Shown: positions 34,329 to 50,486 of the stretch, one piece after another
How the letters are laid out: each line of letters starts with the position of its first letter
Position numbering within the stretch: the stretch's first letter is position 1
Assembly (NCBI RefSeq): GCF_024347535.1
Contig: NZ_AP025497.1
Coordinates: 1,550,001 to 1,614,000, forward strand
Reading direction: 5' to 3'
Length of the DNA stretch: 64,000 nt
Source of the DNA: Vibrio kanaloae
GTDB lineage: Bacteria > Pseudomonadota > Gammaproteobacteria > Enterobacterales > Vibrionaceae
The notes under the pieces: generated by a model
What the model was told of the DNA's origin: nothing
The model's input: the letters and a program-made list of their open reading frames with translations, nothing else
The model's database searches: none
Position numbers and translations under genes: made by a program

Positions 34329-35025
34329 AAATATTCTCTTGTGCTTTGTTCTTTTTAATAACTTGCAGAAGCGGTGATTCTGTCAAAGTGTTGTCTTTGA
34401 TCCACCACTGCTTCTTACATAAATCGGTTAACGCGTTAGTTTGGTGGCTCGTGATGACTAAACTCGCGCCTCTCTGAAGAAGATCTTCGGCCATAATCAC
34501 CAATCTTTCAATAGACTCTTTGTCTAAAGAAGCACTTGGTTCATCCATCAGTAAGATTGAAGGCTTGAGAATCCAAGCTCGTGCCATTGCTACGCGTTGA
34601 CGCTCGCCACCAGACAACACGGAAATGTGCTCGTCTGCTAGGGTTTCTAAACCTACCATCCTTAAAGCATTAATTATTTGAGCTCGCTTATCTTTTTGGC
34701 TCTCTTTGTTAAAGCGAACGCCATAAGCGACATTTTGGTACACCGAGCCATCAAATAGGTAAGGGGTTTGATGGAGATAGATGATGTCTTTAAATTTTAG
34801 TTTGGGAAACAGGTTATGTTGCCAACTTTGTGTCGGGCATTGAATACGGCCAGAGCTTGGTTTGAGCAAGCCTGACAATATTTTAAGTAGGGTCGTTTTG
34901 CCAACACCGTTGTCACCTTTAAGATAAATAGCATCGTTTGGGCCGATAGACAGTTCAGGAATATGAAACAAAACACGCTCTTTATAGCGCATTGAAATTT
35001 GCTGCGTTGTTATTTTTATACTCAT
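34306..35025 (-). CDS. tupC: TupC: tungstate ABC transporter ATPase
   Basis: A 239-residue ABC ATPase with Walker [11 protein letters not shown]-loop HQTPYLF, signature [14 protein letters not shown], Walker B ILLMDEPS and switch His in ITSHQ. It lies 10 bp after the permease gene. Specificity comes from the TupA-like binding protein. A molybdate role cannot be excluded, but the tup context and lack of a ModA-type protein favour tungstate. Confidence 0.88.
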
Positions 35026-35035
35026 GACAGCGTTC

Positions 35036-35734
35036 CTATGTTCTTAAATAGCCTTTTCCTCTCACACTGGAAAGGAAAAAGTTAAGGGCTAATGCCAATG
35101 CCAATAAAACCATGCCTAGCGCGACACCTTGTGCGAATGCGCCTTTGTGACTTTCCATAGCAATAGCCGTTGGGATATTTCGTGTCATTCCCATAATGTT
35201 GCCGCCGACCATCATCGAACATCCGACTTCGGTTACGATGCGAGAAAAGGCTGCAATGGTCGCTGCCAACAAAGGAAATCGTGTTTCCCAAATTAAAGTA
35301 CACGCGACTCGAGTGGTTGAAACTCCAAGGGTACGTGCCGTTTCTACCGCTCGGCGATCACTGGCTTGCAGCGCACCGTGCATCATAGCAACCAGAATAG
35401 GGAAGCAGATCAGCATTTGGCCCAAAATCATCGCCTTTTGAGTGAACAGCAATTGCCAGTCACCTAAAGGGCCAGAGCGAGAGAGCATCATGTACATCAA
35501 CAAGCCAATCACCACAGTCGGTATCGCTTGTAAGGTGTTGATCACCGACAGCAGCGCCCATTTACCGGGAAACTCGGTATAAGCCAATATGAAAGCCATG
35601 ATGATTGCAGGAATAATCACCAGAGAAATGGCAGACAAAGACACGCTGAAGGATACCGCTACGATTTTCCACAGTTCGTGGTCAAAACTGACTAGTAGGT
35701 TCATTGCATCAATCGTTGTTTGCCATAGAGTCAT
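35036..35734 (-). CDS. tupB: TupB: tungstate ABC transporter permease
   Basis: A 232-residue inner-membrane permease with about six spans. The cytoplasmic EAA-like loop ETARTLGVSTTRVACTL is typical of the TupB/CysT type. The ATG at 35734 is preferred to a TTG at 35758. Confidence 0.87.
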   Translation of the reverse strand: MTLWQTTIDAMNLLVSFDHELWKIVAVSFSVSLSAISLVIIPAIIMAFILAYTEFPGKWALLSVINTLQAIPTVVIGLLMYMMLSRSGPLGDWQLLFTQKAMILGQMLICFPILVAMMHGALQASDRRAVETARTLGVSTTRVACTLIWETRFPLLAATIAAFSRIVTEVGCSMMVGGNIMGMTRNIPTAIAMESHKGAFAQGVALGMVLLALALALNFFLSSVRGKGYLRT

Positions 35735-35882
35735 GAAGTATCTCGTGTGAATCGACAATAAGTCTTAAAAGGTAATGCTGATATTTAGGTTATAGCTGAC
35801 ACGGGATTCGTCAAACAGGGTGAGTCAGCTATTCATTTTTTGCGAGCTCAATATTCACCCTGTAAGAGTAGTGCAATGACGA

Positions 35883-36689
35883 CTATTCAGCGCTCGCAAC
35901 AAACAACTGCTTGCCGTGTAGCTTGAAGTCGTTAATCAGTTTCTGACCTTTAGGGTTCACCAACCAATCACTGAATACCTTCGCCGCTTGGTAGTTGATG
36001 CTTGGGTAGCGCTCAGGGTTTACAAGAATCACTTGATAAGGGTTAAATAGGTTCTTGTCGCCTTGGAAAAGGATTTTAAGATCCAGTTTGTTTTGGTAAG
36101 CCAACCACGTGCCACGGTCTGTCATGGTGTAGCCTTGCATTTCAGACGCCATGTTCAGAGTAGGGCCCATGCCTTGACCAACACTGCGGTAGCCACCAAA
36201 GTTTGGTTCCATTTTGGTTTGTGCCCAAATCCCCATCTCTTTCTTGTGCGTACCTGAATCGTCACCACGAGACACAAACGTCACATTGTTGGTTGCAATC
36301 GCTTTGAACACATCAGCCACTGCTTTTTGAGATTCAATTTTTGCCGGATCGCTTTGAGGGCCAACAATCACAAAGTCGTTGTACATCAGTTTACGAGGTA
36401 AAACACCGTAGCCTTTTTCAACAAAGTTCGCTTCAGCCTTTGGTGCGTGAGTCATCACCAAATCCACATCGCCATTTTCACCCATGCGAAGAGATTTACC
36501 GGTACCCGCCGCTAGAACATCGACTTTAATGCCAGAATCTTTTTCGAATTCAGGCAGTAGGTAATCCAGTAGGCCAGAGTGATAAGTGCTTGTTGTTGTC
36601 GCAAGTTTGATATGCGTGGTGTCTTCTGCGCTGCTAGCCGAGTAACTGACGATAGATAGAGCGGCAATCGTTAAGGGAATTGCTTTCAT
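35883..36689 (-). CDS. tupA: TupA: tungstate-binding periplasmic protein
   Basis: A 268-residue solute-binding protein. The signal peptide (about residues 1-22) precedes the TupA hallmark TTTSTYHSGL, a second oxyanion-site segment AAGTGKSLRMGENGD, and the SRGDDSGTHKKE motif that in TupA-type proteins contacts tungstate. It is the first gene of the operon. I chose the ATG at 36689 by the signal peptide; in-frame Met codons lie up to 36704. The promoter is sigma-54 type (36802-36818). Confidence 0.9.
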   Translation of the reverse strand: MKAIPLTIAALSIVSYSASSAEDTTHIKLATTTSTYHSGLLDYLLPEFEKDSGIKVDVLAAGTGKSLRMGENGDVDLVMTHAPKAEANFVEKGYGVLPRKLMYNDFVIVGPQSDPAKIESQKAVADVFKAIATNNVTFVSRGDDSGTHKKEMGIWAQTKMEPNFGGYRSVGQGMGPTLNMASEMQGYTMTDRGTWLAYQNKLDLKILFQGDKNLFNPYQVILVNPERYPSINYQAAKVFSDWLVNPKGQKLINDFKLHGKQLFVASAE

Positions 36690-36801: not shown

Positions 36802-36818
36802 AGCAAGCTTAATGCCAA
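36802..36818 (-). promoter_or_regulatory. Sigma-54 promoter of tupA
   Basis: Minus strand: TTGGCATTAAGCTTGCT, GG-N10-GC, about 113 bp before the tupA ATG. Confidence 0.82.
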
Positions 36819-36866
36819 TAAATAGTGCATCAGACTTCATTAAATTGCTGTTATTCCGCACAAAAC

Positions 36867-36881
36867 TGCGCCATTTGACCC
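36867..36881. promoter_or_regulatory. Putative activator site 1 at tupA
   Basis: TGCGCCATTTGACCC. This is a degenerate form of the element TGCGACATTTTGTCC seen at the next site and at fdh. It lies about 50 bp upstream of the -24 element. Confidence 0.45.
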
Positions 36882-36907
36882 GATAAAATGCATCAAAATA
36901 TGAGCTA

Positions 36908-36922
36908 GGACAAAATGTCGCA
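36908..36922. promoter_or_regulatory. Putative activator site 2 at tupA
   Basis: GGACAAAATGTCGCA with the inverted repeat GACA-AAA-TGTC. It shares an 11-bp identical core, GACAAAATGTC, with 50388-50398 before the fdh operon. It lies about 90 bp upstream of the -24 element. Confidence 0.7.
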
Positions 36923-36951
36923 CGTTGACCCTGTTGATCAAAAGGTTAATT

Positions 36952-36965
36952 GGTACACTCTGTCC
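36952..36965. promoter_or_regulatory. Putative activator site 3 near the regulator start
   Basis: GGTACACTCTGTCC keeps the ACA-N3-TGT symmetry of the other sites. It lies 26 bp before the response-regulator ATG, where it could allow autoregulation. Confidence 0.4.
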
Positions 36966-36990
36966 CAACTTTCCCTATCGGCTGATCATT

Positions 36991-38454
36991 ATGTCTTTAC
37001 CTAGTTCAAGCGCGTCTCATCTCAATTCAAACACATTGACTCAATATCAGGCATTTTCTGTCTTGGTTGTTGATGATGAAATTGGGATGCAGGCAATTCT
37101 TAAGAAAGCACTAGGTAAGTACTTTGGCAAGGTATCGAGTGCAGGTTCAGTAGAAGAAGCTGAGGTTCTACGTTGTAACGAACACTTCGATCTCATCGTT
37201 CTCGATATCAACCTTCCAGGCCGTTCTGGTATTGAATGGGAAGAAGCTTTTAACGACAGTGACCGAAAAGCCGATGTGATCTTCATGACTGGCTATGCCG
37301 ATTTAGAGATGACCATTTCGGCACTTAAGCTTGGTGCTTCTGACTTCATCCTAAAACCGTTCAACCTAGAGCAGATGATACAAGCCGTTTTGCGCTGCAT
37401 GGACAAACGCCTAGATCAAAGGATGCAATACGCGTTGAAGCGCGATGTTAGCCGTCATATCAAAACCGAACTAATCGGTAGTTCAGACAAAACCAAACAG
37501 CTAAAGCTACTTATCAGCCAGTTCGCACCATCACGAGCATCGGTTCTTATTGAAGGCGAGTCGGGCACAGGTAAAGAGTTAGTTGCGCGTGGCGTGCATG
37601 AAGCCAGCAAGCGAACAGGGCCATTTGTGCCAATTAACTGTGGCGCAATTGCTCCAGAACTTCTCGAAAGCGAATTGTTTGGCCACACCTCTGGCGCGTT
37701 TACTGGCGCGAAGAAAAATCGTGAAGGCTTATTCAGAGTGGCAAGCGGCGGCACACTTTTCCTTGATGAAATTGGTGAAATGCCATTGCCAATGCAAGCC
37801 GCACTTTTACGTGTATTAGAGCAACGAACCATTCGTCCGGTCGGTAGTGAGAAAGAAATTGCCGTCGATGTACGAGTGGTGGCGGCGACCAACCGTAACC
37901 TTCAACAAGAGGTAGATAAAGGAAACTTCCGTCGCGATCTTTTCTATCGATTGAATGTATTGAAGATTGATGTGGTGCCACTCAGAGAGCGTCCATCAGA
38001 TCTTATTGAGCTAGTTCCATACTTCACCCGCCTATTATCGAGTGAGCTAGGCATGCCACTTCCAAACTGGGCACATGAAGATATCTTAGCGATGAATGAA
38101 TACGAATGGCCGGGGAATATTCGGGAACTTAAAAATTTAGTGGAACGCTGCATTTTATTAGACAAACCACCAGCTCACTATTGGCGTGAAGTGAATGGCG
38201 ACCCTGCACCAACCAGCATTTCAGTGACGGTGTCACACGGCGCAGAAGTACCAAACCTGAATAACGCAGACGCCGTAGAGGGCTACCCAAATACTTGGAC
38301 GCTCAAAGAAGTGGAAAAATCCCATATAGAACAGTTGGTAAGTTTCCATGATGGTAATAAGTCTGCAGCAGCAAGAGATCTTGGTGTTGCACGAAAAACC
38401 TTAGAACGTAAATACAAAGACTGGAATACAGAAGGCTCTGAATATGCCGATTAG
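36991..38454 (+). CDS. Sigma-54-dependent response regulator, probable tup/fdh activator
   Basis: A 487-residue NtrC-type activator. The receiver domain (residues 22-140) has Asp72 in LIVLDINLPG. The AAA+ domain (about 165-395) has GESGTGKE, GAFTGA and GTLFLDE. A C-terminal Fis HTH ends the protein (DGNKSAAARDLGVARKTLERKY). The ATG at 36991 is chosen since the longer frame to 36925 covers the divergent promoter. It overlaps the sensor kinase gene by 11 bp and is divergent from tupA. Sigma-54 promoters with a shared palindrome precede tupA and the fdh genes, so I infer that it activates both. The signal is unknown; formate, oxyanion supply or redox state are options. Confidence 0.9.
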   Translation: MSLPSSSASHLNSNTLTQYQAFSVLVVDDEIGMQAILKKALGKYFGKVSSAGSVEEAEVLRCNEHFDLIVLDINLPGRSGIEWEEAFNDSDRKADVIFMTGYADLEMTISALKLGASDFILKPFNLEQMIQAVLRCMDKRLDQRMQYALKRDVSRHIKTELIGSSDKTKQLKLLISQFAPSRASVLIEGESGTGKELVARGVHEASKRTGPFVPINCGAIAPELLESELFGHTSGAFTGAKKNREGLFRVASGGTLFLDEIGEMPLPMQAALLRVLEQRTIRPVGSEKEIAVDVRVVAATNRNLQQEVDKGNFRRDLFYRLNVLKIDVVPLRERPSDLIELVPYFTRLLSSELGMPLPNWAHEDILAMNEYEWPGNIRELKNLVERCILLDKPPAHYWREVNGDPAPTSISVTVSHGAEVPNLNNADAVEGYPNTWTLKEVEKSHIEQLVSFHDGNKSAAARDLGVARKTLERKYKDWNTEGSEYAD

Positions 38455-40471
38455 ACGTCAATGGTGGTCCAAGTGGGCGTTCCGCTTCAAGACCATGGTG
38501 CGTTACCGTTTATTGTTTCTGACATCTGCGCCGATCATTCTGACGTTGTGCGCGCTTGTTGCTATCACGCTGTATTGGTCGGTTCATTACACGTGGCAGG
38601 GGGCATTGATTGATGTTGATGAGCGCTTGGACGTTGCTGATAATAGTATTCAACTGATTCAAAGCCAACAGGCCTATAACGTCCGAGCATTTGCTGAGTC
38701 TTACAACTTCCGGATCAAACTTTCGAGTGATATTTCAAAAGAAGAGCTCACACGTTGGGTTTCAGAAAACAAATCTCGCTATGAACTCGATTTTCTACGC
38801 TGGCATAGTGTCGAACGTATGGATAAGAAGCTGGAATACCTGAATCTGACCCATAAAGCGTCGTTTTTCAGCGTATTAAGCCAAAATGAACTCAGCAACC
38901 TAGACCGAGATCTCGCGAGAAAAGCAGAAGTGCCTATGCTTAACGGACAGAGTGTCGAAACACGAGGTCTAGTCAGTCGCACAGTCGTATCCATCCGGGA
39001 TGAGAATGACCGTGTAATTGGTTTTCTAGATGGCGGTATCCTACTCAACAACAGTACACAACTCGTCGATCAAATCAGTAACTTGATCTATCCGCAACGC
39101 GATGGACTTAATCGTCGTATTGGTACTGTCACCGTGTTCCTTGATGATCTACGTGTCAGCACGAACGTGCCTTTAAGCAGTGAAAAGAGTGCAGGACGCG
39201 CGATTGGTACGCGTGTTTCGCATGAGGTTCACTCAAAAGTCTTAAACGAAGGCAAAGAGTGGCTAGATCGCGCGTATGTTTACGACGCTTGGTACATCAC
39301 CGCATATCAGCCTATACATGACCAGTTCGATAATGTGATTGGCATGCTTTATACCGGTTATCTGATTTGGCCGTTGATAGAAACATATCTGACCAACCTT
39401 GGTGAAATCAGCATTACGATTGTGCTGCTATTGCTGGCTTCTGGATTAATCGTTCATCGTGGTGCACGTGATCTTTTCAACCCAATTGAACGCATTCATA
39501 AAGTGGTCAAGCTAGTACAGATGGGTAAAGACAAGCGAATTGGCGCGCTTGGTCTGGATGATCAACATGAATTAACACTACTCGCTAAACAGTTCGACAA
39601 GATGTTGGACTTACTTCATGAACGTAATCAAGAGATTCAACAAGCGGCTTCTGAACTGGAATGTAAGGTTCACTCGCGTACAGCGAGTTTAAAGGAGAAA
39701 ACAGAAGAACTCGAACTGCACATCAAACTGCTCAATCAAGCCAGAGATAAGCTGGTGGTCAATGAAAAATTGGCTGCGTTAGGTGAATTAACCGCGGGCA
39801 TTGCCCACGAGATCAACAACCCAACCGCTGTGATTCTTGGTAACGTTGAGCTAATGAAGTTTGAGTTGGGTGATGAAGTGAGCCGTGTAGACGAAGAAGT
39901 CCACGCCATCATGGAGCAGATTGACCGTATCCGAAACATCACCCGAAGCCTGCTTCAATACAGCCGACACGGTGGTGTACAAGATGAAATCACTTGGCAA
40001 CACATCAACCCAATCGTTGATGAAAGTATCACGCTTGTAAAAACAGGCGCGAAGAAAAAAGGCATTGTGTACGTATCACAACTGAATGCTAAAACCTCAG
40101 TGGAAGTGAACCGAAACCAATTATTGCAGATTCTAGTTAACCTACAAATGAATGCCATTCATGCCATGGACGGACAGGGCACATTGACTATCTCAAGTGA
40201 AGACTGGCTTGAAAATGGCGTGTCTCATGGGGCGATTGTTCATGTGGAAGATGAAGGTTGTGGTATCAATGAAGAACAACTGAAACGCATCTTCTCGCCT
40301 TTCTACACCACCAAACGCGACGGTACGGGCTTAGGTTTATCCGTTTCTCAAAGTATATTGAGCCAAACGGGCGGCGAGATACGAGTTGAATCGAAAGTGG
40401 GTAAAGGAAGTCGCTTTAGTATTTACCTTCAACAGAAAGCTACGCCTCAATTGCTAGTATCAAATCTATAA
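38444..40471 (+). CDS. Membrane sensor histidine kinase, partner of the sigma-54 regulator
   Basis: A 675-residue kinase. Membrane spans at about residues 22-45 and 318-337 enclose a periplasmic double-Cache-like sensor domain of about 270 residues. It continues with HAMP (about 340-392), a coiled coil (392-440), and a DHp helix with phospho-His455 in GELTAGIAHEINNP. The HATPase domain ends the protein (VNLQMNAIHAM, DEGCGI, GTGLGLSVS). The H-box and domain order resemble the NtrB/DctB class that pairs with sigma-54 regulators. It is translationally coupled to the regulator gene. Confidence 0.9.
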   Translation: MPIRRQWWSKWAFRFKTMVRYRLLFLTSAPIILTLCALVAITLYWSVHYTWQGALIDVDERLDVADNSIQLIQSQQAYNVRAFAESYNFRIKLSSDISKEELTRWVSENKSRYELDFLRWHSVERMDKKLEYLNLTHKASFFSVLSQNELSNLDRDLARKAEVPMLNGQSVETRGLVSRTVVSIRDENDRVIGFLDGGILLNNSTQLVDQISNLIYPQRDGLNRRIGTVTVFLDDLRVSTNVPLSSEKSAGRAIGTRVSHEVHSKVLNEGKEWLDRAYVYDAWYITAYQPIHDQFDNVIGMLYTGYLIWPLIETYLTNLGEISITIVLLLLASGLIVHRGARDLFNPIERIHKVVKLVQMGKDKRIGALGLDDQHELTLLAKQFDKMLDLLHERNQEIQQAASELECKVHSRTASLKEKTEELELHIKLLNQARDKLVVNEKLAALGELTAGIAHEINNPTAVILGNVELMKFELGDEVSRVDEEVHAIMEQIDRIRNITRSLLQYSRHGGVQDEITWQHINPIVDESITLVKTGAKKKGIVYVSQLNAKTSVEVNRNQLLQILVNLQMNAIHAMDGQGTLTISSEDWLENGVSHGAIVHVEDEGCGINEEQLKRIFSPFYTTKRDGTGLGLSVSQSILSQTGGEIRVESKVGKGSRFSIYLQQKATPQLLVSNL

Positions 40472-40521
40472 GTTCTAACAACTAATTCACTGATATTATT
40501 ACCCGATAATATTTCTAACGC

Positions 40522-40555
40522 GCTTGGGCTATTATACGAACGTTTTAGCCCAAGC
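40522..40555. terminator. Inverted repeat after the kinase gene
   Basis: GCTTGGGCT/AGCCCAAGC, a 9-bp stem with a 16-nt loop. No T-tract follows, so terminator activity is uncertain. Confidence 0.45.
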
Positions 40556-40744
40556 ACGAAAATTCCGCACTACTAATCTATCGCCAACAAAAGCTCAACC
40601 TATGGCTATTTGACGGGCACCTCTTTTTGATTATGTAACACAGTGTATATATAGTTCACTTGATGCATATCAACTTAGCTGCGCGATTTTTTGATACCTT
40701 GCTCCAAAATTCATAATCAAAAAAGATAATAAAGTCAGTCAGCT

Positions 40745-42364
40745 ATGAAACTAAGTAATCTATCCATCAAATCTAAGCTCGCATCCATCGTCGTTTTATC
40801 GGTTGTTCTATTGGGAATGGCGTCGACCTTTAATTTAATCCAGCAACGTGAAAGCTCCATGCAAGAGCGACAAGATAAACTCAGTGCTCAAGTCGAAACA
40901 GCGGTCAGCTTAGCTCAACACTATTATGACCAACGTAATGTTCTTGGCGAAGAGGTAGCAAAGAAACAAGCACTACAAGCCATTGAAACGCTTCGCTATG
41001 ACAACATCAACTATTTCTGGATTTTAAACCAGCAACTCAACATCATTAACCACCCATTAAAGCCAGAGCTGAATGGCACCAATGCCGGAAACTTGAAAGA
41101 CGGCGCGGGTAAACACCATTGGCGTGAGATGGTGACTATTTCTCTTACTCCAGAAGAGAAAGGCTTTCTTGATTACCAATGGATGAGCCCGCAAGGTGAA
41201 CTCAAAGACAAGATTTCCTACGTACAGCTGTTCCCCGAATGGAATTGGATTGTGGGCTCGGGCATCCTAGTTGCGGACATTCAAGAAGCCTTCTATGCGT
41301 TAGCCATTAAAGAAGGGGTGGTTGCCGTTGTTTTATCGGGTCTGTTGTTTGCGATGGGATATGCGATTTCAAATAATATACTCGCCCCACTTAACAAGCT
41401 GATTGATAACACCCATAAGATTGCAGACGGCGATCTTCGCGTACGTATGAATATGACGCGCAAAGATGAGTTGGGTGATATGAGTCATCAAATTGATACC
41501 ATGCTCGAAAAACTACAAAGCACACTTCGCACTGCCAATGAATCGGCGGATTTATCCAGCAACATGGCAAGTCACATTGCCCAAGCCAGTGAAGAAGCCG
41601 CAACCAGTGTGAACTCGCAACACGCACAGCTTGAGTTATTGTCTACCGCAATGACCGAGATGAGCGCCACCATTTCTGATGTCGCGGTTAATGCAGAAAA
41701 TACCGCCGAGAGCACCAATAAAGTGGTCGGTCATGCAAACCAAAATGACAAGAACATGCAAGTGACGTCTAAGACGATATCCCAGGTTTCAGAGAATATT
41801 TCGACAGCAAACGACCTAGTGAGAGATCTGCAATCAGGCGTCACTGAGATAAGCCAAGTGGTGAGTGTGATACGTGATGTATCAGAACAAACTAATTTGC
41901 TTGCGCTTAACGCAGCAATAGAGGCTGCACGGGCTGGAGAGCAAGGGCGAGGGTTCGCCGTAGTGGCAGACGAAGTACGTAACCTAGCGAGCCGTACTCA
42001 GAACTCAACCAATGAAGTACAGGCGACGATTGAGAAGCTGACTCAGCAAGCAGAGCGTACCTTTAAAGCGATGCAAAGCAGTAATGAGAAAGTCGATCAT
42101 AGTGTCGTTGCCTCTAACGAAACTCGTCAGCAGCTTGATGTGATTGTTAATGAACTTCATAACGCTAATGACATGGTGGCACAGATTGCTGCAGCGTCGG
42201 AGCAACAGAGCACCGTTGCGACGGAAATGAGTGAAAATGTCACCGGTATTCATTTAGCGGCTAACGAAGTTCTCCAAGCGTCACAATCACTCGCAGAAGA
42301 CAGCCAGAAAATGGCCAACACCACAGAACATCTTACTGACCAGTTGAAGTACTTTAAGGTGTAA
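40745..42364 (+). CDS. Methyl-accepting chemotaxis protein with single Cache domain
   Basis: A 539-residue chemoreceptor. Span 1 is about residues 13-33. A periplasmic sCache domain (about 35-185) has the typical [22 protein letters not shown] and WNWIVGSGI. Span 2 (about 190-212), HAMP (about 213-266) and the signalling domain with [35 protein letters not shown] follow. No pentapeptide tether is seen. Cache domains of this type bind small carboxylates or amines; the ligand is unknown. A cluster role with the neighbouring formate genes is only a guess. Confidence 0.9.
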
Positions 42365-42393
42365 ATCCCTTTCCACACATAGCAACCTCATAA

Positions 42394-42431
42394 AAAACAC
42401 CTCCGCACTTGAGATAGTTCGGAGGTGTTTT
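42394..42431. terminator. Terminator between the chemoreceptor and mscS-like gene
   Basis: AAAACACCTCCG/CGGAGGTGTTTT, a perfect 12-bp stem, usable in both directions for the convergent genes. Confidence 0.9.
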
Positions 42432-42493
42432 CGTTCGTTAATAACTAAGTGGCTAAATAGAACACAGAAAGCTAAATCTGAAACCAATCTTGA

Positions 42494-43381
42494 TTAATGC
42501 GCCGCCACTGAAATTTGCGGTGGATTAATGTTGTGCTTTTTAAACTCTTTCATTACTCGAAGGGTAATGTCTGTCTCGAACAACTTCTCATACGCCGTAT
42601 CCACTACATAAGCCTTACACGTTAACTGTATCGCTAGGTAGTTGTCAGTAATCGTCTGTTTAACAAGAACAGTCACCGGCTTTGGTAAGTGAATGTAGCG
42701 GCTTGAAGAAGCAGCCTCTTGAATCAAATCACGGGCGAGAGTGATGTCTTCATTCATCCCAACATAAAACGGAATCACCACTTGCATATCCAACGCGCCA
42801 TAGTTTCCACTGGTGGTCACTTCATTCAAGAACTTGTTGTTTGGAATCGTAATGATGTCGTCGTTTAAAGTTCTCATCCTTACAGAGCGTAAACCGATAG
42901 TAATGATATCCCCGTAGTTGCCCTCAAACGTAACACGATCACCAACCTGGAACGGTCTATCAATCATCACCGTGATGCCAGCGATGAAAGATGCCGCCAA
43001 ATCTTTAAGTGCGAAGCCAACCGACACGGCGAGGGTACCCCCAATCAGAGCCAGTATTTGGTCGTTGATTCGAAAACTCATCATGAATACGATAAGCCCT
43101 GTACTTACGTAAATGAAGAACTGAGTAAACGACTGCAGCTTTTGCAACAACATTCTATATTGCACGAATTGGCTACCAAAGCTTGTCACCAACGAATTGA
43201 TGAATTTAAGCAATAACCACATTGCTGCTATCACGATCATGGAAAAGAACACGCCGCTCCATCGTACTAAGCTAGCTATCTTCGAAATGTTTTCTACGTT
43301 AGCTAACTCTTCCGTTGCGTAGATCGGAAAACTGACCGTCGTCGCTAGGCCAACAAGTAATAGGACAAATAACTTCTTCAT
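42494..43381 (-). CDS. MscS-family mechanosensitive channel
   Basis: A 295-residue small-conductance mechanosensitive channel. A signal-like N-terminus is followed by three spans. The pore helix region (GTLAVSVGFALKDLAASFIAG, about residues 115-136) and the beta domain (FQVGDRVTFEGNYGDI, RTLNDDIITIPN) are typical. It forms an operon with the 781-residue ATPase gene just upstream (2 bp apart). It would release solutes on hypo-osmotic shock, but the pairing suggests ATP-dependent control or a more special role. Confidence 0.9.
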   Translation of the reverse strand: MKKLFVLLLVGLATTVSFPIYATEELANVENISKIASLVRWSGVFFSMIVIAAMWLLLKFINSLVTSFGSQFVQYRMLLQKLQSFTQFFIYVSTGLIVFMMSFRINDQILALIGGTLAVSVGFALKDLAASFIAGITVMIDRPFQVGDRVTFEGNYGDIITIGLRSVRMRTLNDDIITIPNNKFLNEVTTSGNYGALDMQVVIPFYVGMNEDITLARDLIQEAASSSRYIHLPKPVTVLVKQTITDNYLAIQLTCKAYVVDTAYEKLFETDITLRVMKEFKKHNINPPQISVAAH

Positions 43382-43382
43382 T

Positions 43383-45728
43383 TTACTTCACCAATAAATG
43401 TTGACGGTCGAGGACGTTGGTAATGTGCCGGAACCAGTGATCTGAAATCTTTGCCTTATCTTCATTCCAACCAATGTAACCACGGCTCTCGAAGTAACGT
43501 AAAACCCCAGTAATTTCAGCGATACTCAATTGAGTACAGTCAGACAGCACTTCAGGAGACGCGATTTCCAACTGCACAATAGAGCGCAACACAGCCAACA
43601 TAGGTTTAGGCATGTTTTCGAGTTCTTGCGCTTCTGGCACATGAAACAATCTCACTACAGCTTGATCCGTCTCTTTATTCCGATTTAGAGAGAAACGGAA
43701 GAAACGCAAGGCGACAGTAGGGTTGCCATCTGAGTAGTGCCATAAGATCCGATAGAAACCTTGGCGAGCGCGTTCTTCTTCTGTCATGTCATCTTGATCC
43801 CACTGTTTGGGAACGACCAAGCCATCAAACGACAGCGGTTTTTCTAACTCGGTATTAATACGGCTTGTCAGTAGCTCACCGATTTGTTTCTCTGTCCAAC
43901 GTGGCAGAAAGCAAACCAAATCAAACAACAAGCGTTCACCACGCGCTCTATCAACAAAGCGCCAACTAGACTTTGCAATCGACATCACTACACGGTGATT
44001 CTTTTTAGAACGACGTAATAAATTAGTTAAACGGATAAGATCAGATAAGCCTCCGACCATTGGTTTAACCAGCCTCTGAGCATTATCAATTGCGATCAAG
44101 TAAGTTGTTTCGCTTTTCCTTAAATGTGCCAAGATTTGAATTTCTGTAGCGTCTTCATCTAAACCAATACTCATGGCGAGGTGACATAGAAACTCTTGGT
44201 ATCCGGCATAAGGGCAACTGACGTAAAGGGGTTCAGCATTAGAAACTTTGTGCAGTAAAGTATAAAGCAGAGTTGTTGACCCAATGCCACGTTCACCAGA
44301 CACGATACAGATAGCAGGGCTGTCCGACATGAGGTAACGAGACAATTGTTTCACTTCGTCGCCAGCGTAATCAATTAGTGTGCTGTCGATCGAGCCCGGA
44401 AGTATGTATTCAAAAGTTTGATCGCCTTTGATTCGTACTAAGTTTTGCTGGCTTTTATCAAGATCAGATTGCTTTGCCACTTCGATTCTAAATAGGTAAG
44501 CCAAAGCTTGGCTAAACAGTGTGTAATTAGAAAGCAGAACCATGATGCGATGCTGACCGCTGTAGATACCCAACCATATAATCCCCAGTACTGTGGCTAT
44601 TATATTAAGTAGGAAAGTGTCTTTGCGGTTAACCGCCCAGTTGACCCATACCGGTCTTTCTGAGATATGCGAAAGGGCGTCAAATACCTTTGAACGCCAT
44701 AGGCGTAGAACAGATATCGTGACCAGTACAAACCATACGAACAGAGCACTGTAGATCCAGCTGTAAATGGTAGCTTTACCAAGAGTTTTAATAGAGATCT
44801 GAAGGATTACGCCCGCGACAATAAAACTCCATACATAACGTCGGATAGTAGACAAACGGAGTGCAACGACTTCTTGGTTTGAAGTTCTACTCATACGATA
44901 AGCAAATTCGAGTATAAAGCTAATCGCGATCGAACCACCAAGTATCCACCACGTAAAAATCTCTAGGAAGATCAAGTGCTGCAGACTAGGCAAACTGGAG
45001 AGCACTCGCAATGAGATAGTGATAGCAATTAACCACGCTATCGCACGATGGGCACGGCTGATATACCAAACCAAACGGACCAAAAAAGGAGGGTTCTGCT
45101 TGGCTTCCAAAATATTAACTCGGAATAATTCGGTAAGACGCGTGCTGTTTGATAACCACCAGGCTAAACAGAAATAGATAAACAATACCTTCAATGAAGC
45201 CCAAATAACTGGGACCGGTGAAATGAAGATCTCTGTAATCAAAGCGTTGAAGCTACGAGTTTGTAAATACACCAAGTACTCGACATTCAGTTGAGTTAGC
45301 TGCCATTCCTGCTTAAATTGGGTTACCCCATAAGGGCCGAAACCCGTTAGGCGATCTCTGTTCGCGTTCGTTGTTTGCTCTAACAGGTCCTGTTTACTGA
45401 CGTTCAAACTTTTTAATGTTAAGTAACTCGATTCAACAAAGAACCACTGGTCTGAATCGGCCTTGTCTCGATATGTTTTGAGCTGTCGTTCAAACGTTTC
45501 GATTTGTTGGTTTTGAATTCGTATTACGTCAGCAAGCAAGATACTGACTTTACGTTTATCCGATTCGTCCATAAACAAAGGGTCAGGCAGTGCATCGATT
45601 CGTTTAGCCAGATTTTGAACAACCTCCGACACCTCAGGTTGTAATTGCACGTCATATTCCAAGTTGGCATTAACAGGCCAAGAGAGCAGGGCTAATGTGA
45701 GTAATAAGAAGCGCAATAATAAATGCAT
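43383..45728 (-). CDS. Membrane-anchored AAA/STAND-like ATPase paired with MscS
   Basis: A 781-residue protein that I cannot name. A signal peptide (1-21) leads to a periplasmic helical region (about 22-165) and about seven membrane spans (170-415). The cytoplasmic ATPase domain (about 445-650) has a P-loop GERGIGSTT (478-486), in which the invariant Lys is Ser, and a Walker B-like YLIAIDNAQ (543-551) as in ExeA/AAA_22-type ATPases. The C-terminal ~120 residues look like a winged helix (SIAEITGVLRYFESRGYIGW). The 2-bp spacing to the MscS gene means co-translation. It may be a nucleotide sensor or gate for the channel. The architecture call is firm; the function is inference. Confidence 0.75.
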   Translation of the reverse strand: MHLLLRFLLLTLALLSWPVNANLEYDVQLQPEVSEVVQNLAKRIDALPDPLFMDESDKRKVSILLADVIRIQNQQIETFERQLKTYRDKADSDQWFFVESSYLTLKSLNVSKQDLLEQTTNANRDRLTGFGPYGVTQFKQEWQLTQLNVEYLVYLQTRSFNALITEIFISPVPVIWASLKVLFIYFCLAWWLSNSTRLTELFRVNILEAKQNPPFLVRLVWYISRAHRAIAWLIAITISLRVLSSLPSLQHLIFLEIFTWWILGGSIAISFILEFAYRMSRTSNQEVVALRLSTIRRYVWSFIVAGVILQISIKTLGKATIYSWIYSALFVWFVLVTISVLRLWRSKVFDALSHISERPVWVNWAVNRKDTFLLNIIATVLGIIWLGIYSGQHRIMVLLSNYTLFSQALAYLFRIEVAKQSDLDKSQQNLVRIKGDQTFEYILPGSIDSTLIDYAGDEVKQLSRYLMSDSPAICIVSGERGIGSTTLLYTLLHKVSNAEPLYVSCPYAGYQEFLCHLAMSIGLDEDATEIQILAHLRKSETTYLIAIDNAQRLVKPMVGGLSDLIRLTNLLRRSKKNHRVVMSIAKSSWRFVDRARGERLLFDLVCFLPRWTEKQIGELLTSRINTELEKPLSFDGLVVPKQWDQDDMTEEERARQGFYRILWHYSDGNPTVALRFFRFSLNRNKETDQAVVRLFHVPEAQELENMPKPMLAVLRSIVQLEIASPEVLSDCTQLSIAEITGVLRYFESRGYIGWNEDKAKISDHWFRHITNVLDRQHLLVK

Positions 45729-46173
45729 AAAAGTCTCTTAAAATTATGAGGTTAGGAATACTATAGTTAGTTAACCTTATTTTGTGAAATCTAACTCCGT
45801 TTGGAGATAAGTACTTTATTCTTGTTTCTTTCATCATGCCCATGATGCTGTCAGGTTTCAGGCTAGTATTTGAGCGTCTTGCTATGCACGTGTTACTGAT
45901 ATCAAAGAAGTTTGTAAATAACTAGCTGTGCTAGAGAATTTGATCATTGTAGAGGACACATAAGCCCCAATATTGGTTATCGTTCTCTATTTTGTTGTTT
46001 CTAAAGAACAACGTTTTTAGCGGTAAGATAGAGAATAAAAAGTGTGAGTTAACTCAAAGTATAATTTGACTGGGTTATGCTCAATTAATGACGGGTAATT
46101 ACAATCAAGACTTGCAGTTAAACCCTTGAACAAGTAACGTTGCGGCGTTTTTCACATTAAAAAGGTAAATGCA
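45729..46173. other. Divergent promoter region before ybiT
   Basis: 445 bp without a gene. It contains CATCATG-CC-CATGATG (45832-45847, perfect inverted repeat) and a weak GTTGTT/AACAAC hairpin near 45997-46015. I see no recognisable riboswitch, operator or sigma-54 promoter. Confidence 0.4.
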
Positions 46174-47757
46174 TTGATCTCCACAGCAAATATCACTCAA
46201 CAATTCGGTGCTAAGCCACTTTTCGAAAATATTTCAGTTAAGTTCGGCGAGGGTAACCGTTACGGTTTAATCGGCGCGAATGGCTGTGGTAAATCGACGT
46301 TCATGAAGATCCTATCTGGTGAACTTGAGCCAAGTGCTGGTAACGTAAGCTACGATCCAAATGAGCGTGTTGCTAAGCTAAACCAAGACCAGTTTGCTTA
46401 CGAAGAATTCACGGTAATCGATACGGTTATCATGGGTCACAAAGAGCTTTGGGCTATCAAACAAGAACGTGACCGTATCTACTCGCTTCCAGAAATGAGC
46501 GAAGAAGACGGCATGAAAGTGGCTGACCTTGAAGTTCAGTTCGCTGAAATGGACGGTTACATGGCAGAAGCGAAAGCGGGTGAGCTTCTTCTTGCAGTAG
46601 GTATTGAAGAATCAATGCACTTCGGCCTGATGAGCGAAGTAGCACCGGGTTGGAAACTTCGTGTTCTATTGTCTCAAGTACTGTTTGCAGACCCGCATAT
46701 CATGCTTCTTGACGAACCAACGAACAACCTGGACATGGACACCATCAAGTGGTTGGAAGATACGCTAAACCAACGTAACTGCACAATGATCATCATTTCG
46801 CACGACCGTCACTTCCTAAACTCTGTTTGTACACACATGGCTGATCTTGATTACGGTGAGCTTCGTCTTTACCCTGGTAACTACGATGAGTACATGACAG
46901 CAGCAACACAAGCTCGTGAGCGTCTACTTTCTGATAATGCGAAGAAGAAAGCGCAAATTGCTGAACTTCAAACGTTCGTTTCTCGTTTCTCAGCTAACGC
47001 ATCTAAAGCGAAACAAGCGACATCTCGTGCTAAACAGATCGACAAAATTCAACTAGACGAAGTTAAAGCGTCTAGCCGTCAAAACCCGTTCATCCGTTTC
47101 GAACAGTCTAAAGAGCTATTCCGTAACGCACTTGTGGTTGAAAATCTATCTCAAGGTTTTGAAGAAGACCTTTACAGCAAGTTCGATGCGATTTTCGAAG
47201 TAGGCGAGCGTGTTGCTATTATTGGTGAGAACGGTGTGGGCAAAACAACGTTACTCAACACACTAGCAGGTGCTTTGGAACCTCGCACTGGTGAATACAA
47301 GTGGTCTGAAAACTCAAACATTGGTTACTATGCTCAAGATCATGCACATGACTTTGAGACAGACATGAACCTGTTTGATTGGATGAGTCAATGGCGCCAA
47401 GAAGGTGAAGACGAGCAAGTTGTTCGTGGCTTCCTAGGTCGTATGCTGTTTGGTCAAGATGATATCAAGAAGTCTGTAAAGGTTATCTCTGGTGGTGAGC
47501 AAGGTCGTATGCTTCTTGGCAAGATCATGATGCACAAGCCAAATATCCTACTTATGGATGAACCAACGAACCACATGGATATGGAATCTATCGAAGCGCT
47601 TAACTTGGCTCTTGAGAACTACAAAGGCACACTGTTCTTCGTATCTCACGACCGTGTATTCGTAGACTCGCTAGCAACTCGTATCCTTGAGATCAAAGAC
47701 GGCAAGATCAACGACTTCCGCGGTACTTACGCTGAGTTCTTGAAAGCACGCGGCTAA
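46174..47757 (+). CDS. ybiT: YbiT-type ABC-F ATPase
   Basis: A 527-residue ABC-F protein, cytoplasmic, with two ATPase domains and no membrane part; the family acts on stalled ribosomes. Domain 1 has GANGCGKST and [10 protein letters not shown] with the unusual signature [12 protein letters not shown] that is typical of YbiT. The linker (about 240-310) is Lys/Ala-rich. Domain 2 has [18 protein letters not shown] and [11 protein letters not shown]. The start is TTG at 46174, after AAAGG at 46161-46165. The nearby ATG at 46169 is out of frame and closes after two codons. Codon bias suggests high expression. Confidence 0.93.
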
Positions 47758-47774
47758 GCATTAAGCAGGCCTTA

Positions 47775-47799
47775 GTTTCCAACTCAAGAGGTTGGAAAC
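47775..47799 (+). terminator. Hairpin 1 after ybiT
   Basis: GTTTCCAAC/GTTGGAAAC, perfect 9-bp stem with a 7-nt loop, followed by a short T run. Confidence 0.6.
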
Positions 47800-47816
47800 T
47801 TTAAGCTTTAACTAAG

Positions 47817-47852
47817 AAAACGCCGTCATACTGAAAAGCTGACGGCGTTTTT
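47817..47852. terminator. Terminator between ybiT and fdhD
   Basis: AAAACGCCGTCA/TGACGGCGTTTTT, 12-bp stem, T- and A-tracts on both sides, between convergent genes. Confidence 0.9.
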
Positions 47853-47931
47853 GTATTTATCTCTTGTGAGCCACTAACTCTTCACATCAGAATTTTACAT
47901 TAAAAACAATTAGCGAATCACCAAGTCGAAC

Positions 47932-48783
47932 TCACGCTTTTTGTCCGGCTGCTGATTGTTCACCTTTCACATCAAAGTCGATCTTGTCTGCACCCGTGAA
48001 CACTTGGAAGCGTAAACCTTTAGCGCGAGCAATGGTTGTGATGCCGAACTTCTGAGCCAGGTCTAAGCCCATTTGCGTTACGCCAGAACGTGATAGCAGA
48101 ACAGGGATACCCATCTGAGCAACCTTAATCACCATCTCAGATGTTAAACGACCTGTGGTATAGAAGATCTTGTCTTCACCTGACTCTTTGTTAAGCCACA
48201 TCTCACCAGCTAATGTATCAACGGCATTGTGTCGGCCAACATCTTCCACAAACGACAACACTTGGTCGTCTTTACACACTGCACAACCATGTACTGCGCC
48301 AGCCTTCTTGTAGGTGTCGTTGTAATGAGTCAACGCTTCAAGCGCTGTGTAGATTTCAGATTGCTTAATCTTGGTTTGAGGCACTTGGTAATTTTCCAAC
48401 TGCTTCATTACGTTACCAAACATGGTGCCCTGACCGCAGCCAGAGGTTACTGTCTTCTTCTTAAGCGCTTGCTCAAGTTGGCTCGTGTCTTCTTTGGTGA
48501 TAACCGCTGCAGAGCTGGTTTCCCAATCGATGATAATTGATTCAACCGCTTCAGGATCGGAAAGGAAGCTTTGGTTCTTCAAATAACCTAACACTAACGC
48601 TTCAGGGCGTGAGCCGAGTGTCATCAGCGTGACTATCTCTTTCCAGTTCAACATGACCGTGAGAGGGCGCTCGCAAGCGATTTGTTTGGTTAACTTTTCG
48701 CCATATTCATCAAACACTTCAACTTCGATTGTCTGAAGTGGGTTTTCACTGGTTTTTATTATGTTTGGTTTTACCACAGTCAT
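47932..48783 (-). CDS. fdhD: FdhD: formate dehydrogenase accessory sulfurtransferase
   Basis: A 283-residue FdhD protein, which passes sulfur from IscS to the Mo/W cofactor of FdhA. The conserved REDVGRHNAVDK-type core is present (EDVGRHNAVD), as are YTTGRLTSEM and SRSGVTQMGLDLA. The usual catalytic loop CGxCG is reduced to one Cys (C116 in TSGCGQG). A new C-x-x-C (C167-A-V-C170) replaces the Ala-rich HAAALF segment. It diverges from the DUF3305 gene. This may be a subfamily specific to this FDH type. Confidence 0.9.
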   Translation of the reverse strand: MTVVKPNIIKTSENPLQTIEVEVFDEYGEKLTKQIACERPLTVMLNWKEIVTLMTLGSRPEALVLGYLKNQSFLSDPEAVESIIIDWETSSAAVITKEDTSQLEQALKKKTVTSGCGQGTMFGNVMKQLENYQVPQTKIKQSEIYTALEALTHYNDTYKKAGAVHGCAVCKDDQVLSFVEDVGRHNAVDTLAGEMWLNKESGEDKIFYTTGRLTSEMVIKVAQMGIPVLLSRSGVTQMGLDLAQKFGITTIARAKGLRFQVFTGADKIDFDVKGEQSAAGQKA

Positions 48784-49084
48784 GTCCTACTTAATGAGAC
48801 AGCGATGTTATGAGATAAGAAGTCAACAAGAGCCATCCTATGACTCTATAGAATACATTTGTTCGCTGTAATTTGTTCAGTTTTAGTTTTACTTTAACTC
48901 AAGCATTTAGCAATTCTCATTCCAAAATAACGGGGATTCCAAAAAACATGAAGCATTTGATGAAAATAGCGCAAAATAAGAGAGTTCGTCGGGGGAGCTG
49001 TCTGAACTTACGAGTATCGGCTAACGTTATAGGGTTAACTGACTAGTGAAAGGCATTATGTAGGATAGTCAAAGTTATCGTGTA
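48784..49084. other. Upstream region of fdhD and the DUF3305 gene
   Basis: About 300 bp without a gene, upstream of the -24/-12 promoter. No clear copy of the GACAAAATGTC element was found here; the nearest one lies downstream of the promoter (49128-49140). Confidence 0.4.
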
Positions 49085-49101
49085 TTGGCGTGTTTATTGC
49101 T
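49085..49101 (+). promoter_or_regulatory. Sigma-54 promoter of the DUF3305-DUF3306 unit
   Basis: TTGGCGTGTTTATTGCT with GG-N10-GC spacing, about 79 bp before the ATG at 49180. Confidence 0.78.
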
Positions 49102-49127
49102 ATGTAGGGGGTATATGATTGCGCTCA

Positions 49128-49140
49128 GTACAAAATGTCC
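49128..49140. promoter_or_regulatory. GACAAAATGTC-like element in the DUF3305 leader
   Basis: GTACAAAATGTCC, one mismatch from the fdh/tup core. It lies downstream of the predicted transcription start, unlike the other copies. Confidence 0.5.
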
Positions 49141-49179
49141 TAAGTGTATTCAGACCAAAGAAAATCAATTGGGTGAAGT

Positions 49180-49644
49180 ATGTCTGAGATAAAAGAATTC
49201 AAAGAACAATATGAAAAAACAGAAGCAGCTTGGCCAATCGGTGTCCAAAGAATAGAGAAAGAGATCAAAACAGGTATCTGGGTCACGACTCAATGGGAAT
49301 TAACTGGGTTTGAACTGTCGCCAGAAGACGATGCCCAAGACGTGTGTTTACTCCAATTACATAAAGACGAGCGTACAGACTATCGTTTCAACCTAAGCTC
49401 TCAGCAACCTAAGCTTTTCTTAGTAATGGATAATGTTGATTCTGGTGTTAAGCCCGTAATTCAGTTACTTACAGCATCACAAACCGTAGCAGGGCAGTAC
49501 ATGGACGGAGACAACCAAGTGCTGTCTTACGACATGCCTCTGCCCGTACAAGCTTGGATGGAAGCATTCATCGGTCGTCATGGCGAGTTATTAGAAGCAA
49601 GGCGCAAGAAACGTAAAGGGGTGGGTAGATCAAATGGCAACTAA
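49180..49644 (+). CDS. DUF3305 protein of the formate dehydrogenase cluster
   Basis: A 154-residue cytoplasmic protein of the DUF3305 family, which I know from formate dehydrogenase loci of vibrios, Shewanella and relatives. It has no signal or membrane segment; the C-terminus is basic (ARRKKRKGVG). The role is unknown, probably FDH maturation or assembly. It overlaps the DUF3306 gene by 11 bp. Confidence 0.82.
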   Translation: MSEIKEFKEQYEKTEAAWPIGVQRIEKEIKTGIWVTTQWELTGFELSPEDDAQDVCLLQLHKDERTDYRFNLSSQQPKLFLVMDNVDSGVKPVIQLLTASQTVAGQYMDGDNQVLSYDMPLPVQAWMEAFIGRHGELLEARRKKRKGVGRSNGN

Positions 49645-50254
49645 TTTCTTTAGCCGTTGGTCTCAACGAAAACTTGATGAATCCACTGACGAGCCTTTTG
49701 AAGCAGAACAAACACTGGAAGAAATAGAACTTACCTCCTCCGATTCTGTATCTTCTGAGATTCTATCTACTGATCTTTCACCTGCTGCTGCCGCAGAAGC
49801 ACCTCAGCCTTTAGAAAGTGATGCTTTAGAAAGTGATGCTTTAGAAAGTGATGCTTTAGAAAGCGATGAAGAAGCTCATGCTGTCGACTCCCAAGATACG
49901 GCATCAGAATCGACTGAAGATTTGCCTGTTGCTCAATTATTGGTGTCAGAAGCCTCAGAAAGCGTAAAAAAAACCGCATTACGTAAATTATTCCTCTCAG
50001 AGGAGTTTAACGTGCGTGATGGCTTGGACGATTACGACGACGATTACAGCAATTTGAAGACTCTCTCTGAAGGTGTTGCAGAAACGCTTCGCGATTGGGT
50101 AAAAGACAAGACAGAAGAAGACACAGTAAACGAATCAGATCAAGTCGCTGATAATGAAGAAGAAATTTTGATTTATGAGGTTGATGACTCTATTAACGAA
50201 GCCGAAGTGACCGAATCAGAACTCAGTGAAAGTGACGAAATTGCGGGGGAATAA
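49634..50254 (+). CDS. DUF3306 protein of the formate dehydrogenase cluster
   Basis: A 206-residue very acidic protein of the DUF3306 family. The conserved part is at the N-terminus (NFFSRWSQRKLDE) and at about 115-155 (LRKLFLSEEFNVRDGLDDYDDDY). The rest is low-complexity Glu/Ser/Asp, including four LESDA-type repeats (about residues 59-78) encoded by a 15-bp tandem repeat. It is probably a disordered assembly factor for FDH. Confidence 0.82.
   Translation: MATNFFSRWSQRKLDESTDEPFEAEQTLEEIELTSSDSVSSEILSTDLSPAAAAEAPQPLESDALESDALESDALESDEEAHAVDSQDTASESTEDLPVAQLLVSEASESVKKTALRKLFLSEEFNVRDGLDDYDDDYSNLKTLSEGVAETLRDWVKDKTEEDTVNESDQVADNEEEILIYEVDDSINEAEVTESELSESDEIAGE
49809..49868 (+). repeat. 15-bp tandem repeat, four copies, in-frame
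   Basis: Four copies of CTTTAGAAAGTGATG, the last with one substitution. It encodes LESDA units, so copy number can change without a frameshift. Confidence 0.9.
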
Positions 50255-50324
50255 AAAGAACTGTATAAAAACACAGTAACCAGCAATAATGATACAGTGA
50301 CTAACGAAGATACTTAAAAGAGGT

Positions 50325-50339
50325 GAGACAAAATATACC
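50325..50339. promoter_or_regulatory. Putative activator site 1 at fdh
   Basis: GAGACAAAATATACC, a degenerate copy of the GACAAAATGTC element, about 145 bp upstream of the -24 element. Confidence 0.5.
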
Positions 50340-50351
50340 ACACAAAGAATA

Positions 50352-50365
50352 GGTACATTTTGACT
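50352..50365. promoter_or_regulatory. Putative activator site 2 at fdh
   Basis: GGTACATTTTGACT, reverse orientation (AGTCAAAATGTACC), about 115 bp upstream of the -24 element. Confidence 0.55.
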
Positions 50366-50377
50366 AAACACTCAATG

Positions 50378-50413
50378 AGCCGCTTGCGACAAAATGTCCC
50401 AAGCGGCTTTTTT
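50378..50413 (+). terminator. Terminator after DUF3306, with activator site in its loop
   Basis: AGCCGCTTG/CAAGCGGCT, 9-bp stem followed by TTTTTT. The 13-nt loop is CGACAAAATGTCC, which is the fdh/tup palindrome. Confidence 0.88.
50386..50400. promoter_or_regulatory. Putative activator site 3 at fdh
   Basis: GCGACAAAATGTCCC, with the same 11-bp core as 36909-36919 at tupA. It lies about 80 bp upstream of the -24 element and inside the terminator loop. Confidence 0.7.
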
Positions 50414-50469
50414 ATTATCTAAAGATACTCAGAATCACACTAATTCATTGAAAATAATGAATTATTAAT

Positions 50470-50486
50470 TTGGCATGGCACTTGCT
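50470..50486 (+). promoter_or_regulatory. Sigma-54 promoter of the main fdh operon
   Basis: TTGGCATGGCACTTGCT, GG-N10-GC, -12 box TTGCT. About 168 bp before the first ATG at 50654. Confidence 0.87.

Follow-up and report, generated by a model that had tools for sequence, protein, structure and literature searches.

The sigma-54 activators of the NtrC, AtoC and ZraR type represent a general kind of two-component system that is well known. Formate metabolism is also under sigma-54 activation in the formate hydrogenlyase system of E. coli, where FhlA is a kinase-independent sensor of cytoplasmic formate and ModE provides the metal input. In Desulfovibrio, TupR and TunR (reportedly described in Rajeev 2019, as cited in PMC10102598) are said to regulate tungstate transport and tungstoenzymes, and thus to couple tungstate uptake to tungsten enzymes; they are reportedly one-component metal-binding regulators unrelated to sigma-54 two-component systems. 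Here we describe a locus of Vibrio kanaloae. It lies in a window of 64,000 nucleotides (contig NZ_AP025497.1, positions 1,550,001 to 1,614,000, forward strand; coordinates below are those of this window) and holds genes for a tungstate-type importer (tup), molybdopterin synthesis and a formate dehydrogenase (fdh), together with a sensor kinase and a sigma-54 response regulator. We consider it very likely that this one two-component system commands tungstate import, cofactor synthesis and fdh through a 17-bp palindrome, with formate as the most likely signal. The features that carry the argument are as follows.

31927..36689, minus strand: tupA-tupB-tupC-mobA-mobB/moeA, encoding an ABC importer of the tungstate type and enzymes of molybdopterin (bis-MGD) synthesis, from NCBIfam and Pfam matches and overlaps of open reading frames.
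36802..36817, minus strand: -24/-12 promoter of tupA, TGGCATTAAGCTTGCT, a sequence match conserved in relatives.
36906..36922, plus strand: R1, main predicted activator site at tupA, TAGGACAAAATGTCGCA, one mismatch to the palindrome TGSGACAAAATGTCSCA.
36951..36967, minus strand: R2, second predicted site, TGGGACAGAGTGTACCA, between R1 and the start of the regulator gene.
36991..38454, plus strand: sigma-54 response regulator (PF00072 receiver; PF00158 Sigma54_activat, AAA+; PF02954 Fis-type helix-turn-helix, HTH).
38444..40471, plus strand: sensor histidine kinase with a periplasmic sCache_3_3 domain, from domain scans.
50324..50340, plus strand: S1, predicted activator site, TGAGACAAAATATACCA, 59-63 bp before S3 in 70 of 79 relatives.
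50351..50367, minus strand: S2, predicted activator site, weak here, TTAGTCAAAATGTACCT, present at four mismatches or fewer in 29 of 79 relatives.
50385..50401, plus strand: S3, main predicted activator site at fdh, TGCGACAAAATGTCCCA, a match to the palindrome without mismatch and the genome's only one.
50471..50486, plus strand: -24/-12 promoter of the fdh operon, TGGCATGGCACTTGCT.
50654..58213, plus strand: fdh operon, encoding a 4Fe-4S protein, a TorD-type chaperone, FdhA, FDH3 beta, cytochrome b556 and a small protein.

The original prediction, made from the letters of this stretch alone, started from an exact 11-bp core, GACAAAATGTC, found upstream of both tupA (36909-36919) and fdh (50388-50398), and both copies are present as described. 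The core alone, however, is not evidence of a link, because its count in the window is at chance (28 matches at two mismatches or fewer, where 28.5 would be expected) and moeA itself contains a third exact copy (32743-32753). Both copies sit in a longer shared 17-bp palindrome, TGSGACAAAATGTCSCA, and it is this palindrome, with its pairing with a -24/-12 promoter, that is the informative element. A genome scan for the element had been proposed as a check, and the 17-mer at zero or one mismatch turned out to be confined to the fdh and tupA loci, with two places in 4,652,496 bases: 50385-50401 (no mismatch) and 36906-36922 (one mismatch). Two further places at two mismatches are both on the second contig (L003 and L004), where nothing tied to the tup/fdh system was seen in inspection as lists of open reading frames only, and at three mismatches the frequency over the whole genome equals that of the reversed control. 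The combination of GACAnnnTGTC with TGGCN8TGC following after 62-92 bp occurs exactly twice in the genome, at the tupA and fdh promoters, and not at all in the reversed control. Across 148 Vibrio genomes this combined pattern gave at least 161 matches in at least 100 genomes versus 17 in the reversed control, a count that is supportive only, because many of the matches listed resemble coding sequence elsewhere and the figures are lower bounds. Two layouts for a wider regulon were tried and rejected: a site 92-122 bp before the -24/-12 sequence gave one genome match, inside mobA, and one in the control, and a site 10-40 bp after it gave none in the genome and one in the control.

The -24/-12 sequences reported upstream of tupA and of fdh (TGGCATTAAGCTTGCT and TGGCATGGCACTTGCT) are likewise as predicted. 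The further claim, that three copies of the element precede each operon, stands at fdh (50324-50340, 50351-50367 and 50385-50401) and falls at tupA, where there is one strong copy plus R2, which had not been named; no positions had been given for two of the three predicted tupA copies, and the AAAA-containing stretches near 36858 and 36882 are half-sites at best, discernible by eye only in close relatives among the matches listed. The regulator gene is divergent from the tupA operon, and the gap between them is conserved in its content. All 74 distinct tupA-regulator gaps carry both a site (three mismatches or fewer, the three central bases left free) and a -24/-12 sequence (one mismatch or fewer); 11 of these had been fetched by the pattern itself, and their removal leaves 63 of 63 Vibrionaceae gaps that were fetched through the regulator protein. 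The two sites in the gap are 45 bp apart in 52 of the 63 and 57 bp apart in 5, against 0 of 3150 shuffled gaps. No sigma-70 promoter was found for the regulator gene. As a side observation, a chromatin immunoprecipitation (ChIP) peak of AphA has been placed between VC1522 and VC1523 of V. cholerae (PMC6855506); we take this interval to be the regulator-tupA gap (36690-36990 in the window), so that a quorum-sensing input is possible.

The presence of the site is closely associated with the presence of the regulator. Regulators were called in Vibrio at E <= 1e-180, so that a negative genome is one with no match at that level and could still hold a distant homologue. Among 118 Vibrio genomes the regulator was called in 85. 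The first fdh gene was present in 90, at full length in 85 of them and in two pieces in 5; 82 have both, 3 the regulator only and 8 fdh only. In one of these eight, G097, part of a regulator adjoins tupA (L242), so this genome was scored as regulator-positive, and the upstream regions of fdh were compared in 86 of the 90 genomes. S3 is found upstream of the first fdh gene in all 79 regulator-positive relatives, and a site together with a -24/-12 sequence in 77 of 79 regulator-positive versus 0 of 7 regulator-negative regions (0 of 4300 shuffles), for which Fisher's test gives p 7e-9, a value inflated because the genomes are related. The seven regulator-negative genomes fall into two clades, which amounts to two changes, in a tree built from 29 Vibrio proteins and 4 from outside; none of 200 bootstrap trees has a single change, the strongly supported branches alone force only one, and the root is unsure because the outside branches are long.

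The distribution of the importer follows the enzyme. TupA is present in all seven fdh-bearing regulator-negative genomes, in none of the three regulator-positive genomes without fdh, and in none of the ten tested (of 25) that have neither. In the seven fdh-bearing genomes without a regulator (L285-L291) fdhD is immediately followed by tupABC on the same strand, near DUF3305, with no site-plus-promoter upstream of tupA; this arrangement may be an alternative way of keeping metal supply and enzyme together. The GAFTGA loop is the contact of activators of this kind with sigma-54, and the window regulator has it, along with the HTH sequence GNKSAAARxLGVARKTLERK. Among 120 regulator loci, which are not all from distinct genomes, GAFTGA is present in 113, altered to GSFTGA or GAFSGA in 4 and lost in 3, and in genomes that lack tupA and fdh it is lost from all three regulators. 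These three proteins (L235, 8659-10107, minus strand; L236, 8398-9855, minus strand; L237, 7129-8559, plus strand) retain the HTH, and those of L235 and L237 lie between mobA-moeA and an ammonium transporter gene; each looks like a sigma-54 activator that is decaying or has been repurposed. The predicted sites and promoters, with their spacing, their conservation and their tie to the presence of the regulator and of GAFTGA, are what the sequence comparison establishes.

Outside Vibrio, at E <= 1e-120, the regulator is found in 16 of 274 genomes of the class, this one included (15 of 273 others). The 15 outside proteins, from other gammaproteobacterial families, are 48-56% identical to the window regulator over the aligned part in one comparison and 46-51% in another, and largely share its HTH sequence; in 12 of the 15 loci the neighbours include tup, mob/moe, fdhD or further genes of the fdh cluster, all identified by similarity only. 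The wider pattern TGSGWCAnnnTGWCSCA (TGSGWCANNNTGWCSCA), which was chosen after some of the outside sites had already been seen, occurs at one mismatch or fewer 12 times in the 233 kb of the 15 loci versus 0.5 times (maximum 1) in 15 first-order Markov copies. The 12 sites fall in 8 of the 15 loci, all of them between mapped regulator, tup/mob, DUF3305 or fdh genes and mostly with a -24/-12 sequence close by. That the element tracks the regulator in Vibrio, and that similar sites recur in these distant loci, supports by comparison the central proposal of the original prediction, namely one regulator over metal supply, cofactor synthesis and enzyme.

The identity of the proteins deserves comment. 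The gene adjoining tupA had been described as a sigma-54 response regulator accompanied by a sensor kinase, and its receiver, AAA+ and Fis-type HTH domains agree with this; its closest named records are from Vibrio, including V. splendidus and V. lentus. The tupA and tupB genes were named from their NCBIfam models at scores below the curated cut-offs, which were missed by all three importer proteins (TupA 252 of 400 bits, TupB 179 of 320, TupC 106 of 400). The TupA model is the sole NCBIfam family match of its protein, and tupC was named by position because the TupC model is just one among many ABC-ATPase matches. The importer resembles the Tup type, and tungsten rather than molybdenum is its presumed metal. 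The reading frames of tupC, mobA and mobB-moeA overlap, so a single transcript is probable, and cofactor synthesis is probably driven from the tupA promoter.

Published expression data fit a shared regulon in two Vibrio species. In PMC9817140, an rpoN mutant of V. parahaemolyticus has log2 changes of -3.17 to -4.75 for VP1510-VP1515, -1.45 for VP1501 and -1.84 for VP1508. The paper predicts -24/-12 sites for fdh, VP1501 and VP1508, and it flags VP1510, VP1501 and VP1508 as having RpoN ChIP peaks in V. cholerae. The VP1501 promoter as printed there occurs in 14 of 196 Vibrio genomes and stands upstream of tupA in 5 of 5 fetched loci, which makes VP1501 very probably the tupA gene. The 15-mer printed for VP1508 is identical to the DUF3305 promoter of one of our loci (L126). 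In V. cholerae, PMC5816637 reports VC1510-VC1518, VC1523 and VC1524 as raised in a ribD mutant, and 10 of these 11, all except VC1524, also in a ribN mutant. By position VC1523 would be tupA, and VC1517-VC1518 would be DUF3306-DUF3305; VC1524 and VC1525 are called tungstate transport in PMC12505965.

The maturation genes between the two operons probably belong to the same regulon. Their region comprises the following features.

47932..48783, minus strand: fdhD, formate dehydrogenase accessory sulfurtransferase.
48909..48924, minus strand: candidate -24/-12 promoter of fdhD, TGGAATGAGAATTGCT.
49086..49101, plus strand: -24/-12 promoter of DUF3305-DUF3306, TGGCGTGTTTATTGCT, a relative of the published VP1508 promoter.
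49129..49139, plus strand: TACAAAATGTC, element-like, just downstream of the DUF3305 -24/-12 sequence and present only in close relatives.
49180..50254, plus strand: DUF3305 and DUF3306 genes (Pfam PF11749, PF11748) of the formate dehydrogenase cluster, probable maturation proteins.

The predicted -24/-12 promoters at fdhD and DUF3305 are a new detail. Of 61 regulator-positive fdhD-DUF3305 gaps, 54 have a -24/-12 sequence that points toward DUF3305 and 36 have one that points toward fdhD (shuffles 2% per strand), and in three of three regulator-negative gaps neither promoter is present. Outside Vibrio, palindrome sites precede DUF3305 in two loci (L254 and L261) and, more weakly, in a third (L264). 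The element-like TACAAAATGTC lies 3' of its promoter, a position that would be unusual for an activator site. Downstream of the fdh operon, amt has a -24/-12-like sequence of its own, TTGGAACACATCTTGCG, plus GTTGGTGCAATC-type stretches that we take to be NtrC-like (region 58380-58646), so amt is probably under nitrogen control and outside the tup/fdh regulon.

Regulator binding, phosphorylation, looping and formate as the signal are the steps that we infer for the mechanism. The kinase (38444-40471) would sense a periplasmic signal, most likely formate, and phosphorylate the regulator (36991-38454). The active regulator would bind TGSGACAnnnTGTCSCA as oligomers, at R1 and R2 before tupA and at S1, S2 and S3 before fdh, and would loop to sigma-54 RNA polymerase at the -24/-12 promoters. 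In this way tupABC-mobA-moeA, for tungstate import and pterin cofactor synthesis, would be switched on together with fdh, and DUF3305-DUF3306 and fdhD, with their divergent -24/-12 pair, would probably join the same regulon.

Several observations weigh against this mechanism. In PMC9817140, no shift of the VP1510 promoter was obtained with purified RpoN, and indirect control was what its authors proposed. The authors of the riboflavin study place three of the genes in the iron regulon, and neither VC1525 nor VC1519-VC1522 appears in the part of their text available (PMC5816637). No binding experiment on regulator and element was found in the open-licence literature searched, as far as its accessible parts go. 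Two regulator-positive relatives of the 79 (G001 and G097) fall below the promoter threshold at fdh, with the site present and a weaker -24/-12 sequence of three mismatches, and among the seven regulator-negative fdh regions a lone site (three mismatches or fewer) occurs in three and a lone -24/-12 sequence in one. Between fdhD and DUF3305 the promoter toward DUF3305 is missing in 7 of 61 regulator-positive gaps and that toward fdhD in 25 of 61, and in Vibrio no good 17-bp site was found between the two promoters, including in the listed part of a 27-sequence alignment. Outside Vibrio, 7 of the 15 loci have no site at one mismatch or fewer; one locus (L260) is free of tup and fdh genes over 19.5 kb, and two others (L256 and L258) have none on contigs that are short.

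As to the signal, Pfam places sCache_3_3 in the kinase sensor of the window and of three scanned relatives. A profile built from 26 sensor domains matches just two PDB entries, 8py1 at E 4e-4 and 8py0 at E 2e-3, both of them ligand domains of chemoreceptors, and the single sequence matches them at no better than E 0.02 and 0.1. The entries 8py0 and 8py1 are reportedly formate-binding sCache structures, and formate is a lead and not a result. The regulator could also drive the operons in response to a metal (tungstate or molybdate) or to redox or iron state, which is compatible with everything else proposed here; the rise of the operons in the V. cholerae riboflavin mutants, and the tie of three of the genes to iron made by those authors (PMC5816637), point that way, and the periplasmic sCache_3_3 domain, with its distant match to 8py1 and 8py0 alone in the PDB, points away from it. 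We regard such a signal as a serious contender, at somewhat less than even chances. Separately, a chemoreceptor gene (40745-42364) follows the kinase in the window and also in a minority of 65 loci, mainly those of the closest relatives. Among NCBIfam models it matches CtpM best, at a score under the cut-off, and it might sense a related ligand.

It could also be that the palindrome is bound by some other enhancer-binding protein or by a global factor, while the adjacent two-component system controls something else. The link between regulator and element comes from comparison, look-alike proteins are abundant (33-108 first-look candidates per regulator-positive Vibrio genome, not individually checked), and AphA has a ChIP peak in the VC1522-VC1523 gap (PMC6855506). 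Set against this, the site with its -24/-12 sequence is absent where the regulator is absent, in two clades; distant homologues outside Vibrio come with similar sites; and GAFTGA is missing exactly in the regulators whose genomes have lost tupA and fdh (3 of 3). We therefore judge a different binder improbable and retain the adjoining two-component system as the very likely controller of both operons.

The main site at fdh has a second role, which is a new detail: S3 is the head of the terminator of the upstream operon.

50377..50416, plus strand: intrinsic terminator after DUF3306, with S3 as its head, from RNA folding and stem covariation.

At the RNA level, the stretch 50370-50420 forms a G+C-rich hairpin of -21.3 kcal/mol (z -6.1) that is followed by a T run, as in an intrinsic terminator; a simple terminator scan of the window did not list the hairpin 50377..50416, perhaps due to a stem mismatch, and the T run is weak in some distant relatives. 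In 57 distinct sequences, chosen by likeness to the palindrome plus a T run, the GACA/TGTC core is near-invariant and the outer stem varies; because of that choice the fixed core is partly a selection effect, which does not apply to the outer stem. The stem arms form 35 distinct pairs, of which 25 are fully paired; over all of them 88.6% of stem cells pair versus 54.6% (maximum 65.7%) in 2000 shuffles, kinship being uncorrected. With the core fixed and the outer stem compensated, the same bases seem to maintain both the predicted protein site, by fixed letters, and the terminator, by compensation. That the two loci are separate stories, the fdh copy being a mere terminator hairpin and the tupA match chance, draws on the position of S3 inside a strong hairpin and on the chance-level count of the 11-bp core in the window, and is hardly credible given that the outer stem compensates while GACA/TGTC stays nearly fixed (a contrast to which the choice of sites by palindrome likeness contributes on the core side), that S1 lies outside the hairpin at a distance kept in 70 of 79 relatives, and that the 17-mer at zero or one mismatch is limited to the two loci genome-wide.

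S3 within the terminator offers a clean natural case of an enhancer and a transcription terminator using the same bases. An enhancer placed there could let regulator and transcription interact, either with the bound oligomer as a roadblock that aids termination or with read-through clearing the enhancer, within a formate-sensing feed-forward regulon in which tungsten import, cofactor, maturation and enzyme are all raised by the substrate; we offer this fuller picture as speculation that is rather unlikely to hold in its entirety.

In the accessible parts of the open-licence literature searched, no activator for tup or fdh in Vibrio is named, and there is no description of the target set, of the motif, of an enhancer within a terminator or of GAFTGA being lost together with the regulon. 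For a system present in 85 of 118 Vibrio genomes, our analysis provides a set of targets, a motif for binding and a probable class of signal. It explains the pairing of tungstate-type uptake with this formate dehydrogenase, and it gathers the rpoN and riboflavin results, published but so far unexplained, under a single regulon that can be tested; if true, metal and enzyme are supplied together. The published sigma-54 regulons of V. cholerae and V. parahaemolyticus overlap with it in content, since fdh, VP1501 and VP1508 are already lowered in the rpoN mutant, but the accessible part of that paper (PMC9817140) treats VP1501 as a hypothetical protein, mentions neither an activator nor a common element, and describes the control of fdh as indirect. 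With the systems of the NtrC, AtoC and ZraR type the locus shares the receiver-AAA+-Fis HTH architecture, the -24/-12 promoters and the paired upstream palindromes, whereas its target set and palindrome differ. The best NCBIfam matches of the regulator are AtoC, NtrC, PrdR and LuxO, and it scores well under the equivalog cut-offs of AtoC (368 of 714 bits), NtrC, LuxO and ZraR alike. As with TupR and TunR, tungstate uptake would be coupled to tungsten enzymes, and as with FhlA and ModE, sigma-54 activation would serve formate metabolism; unlike in the latter case, the two-component system described here seems to command the metal supply itself.

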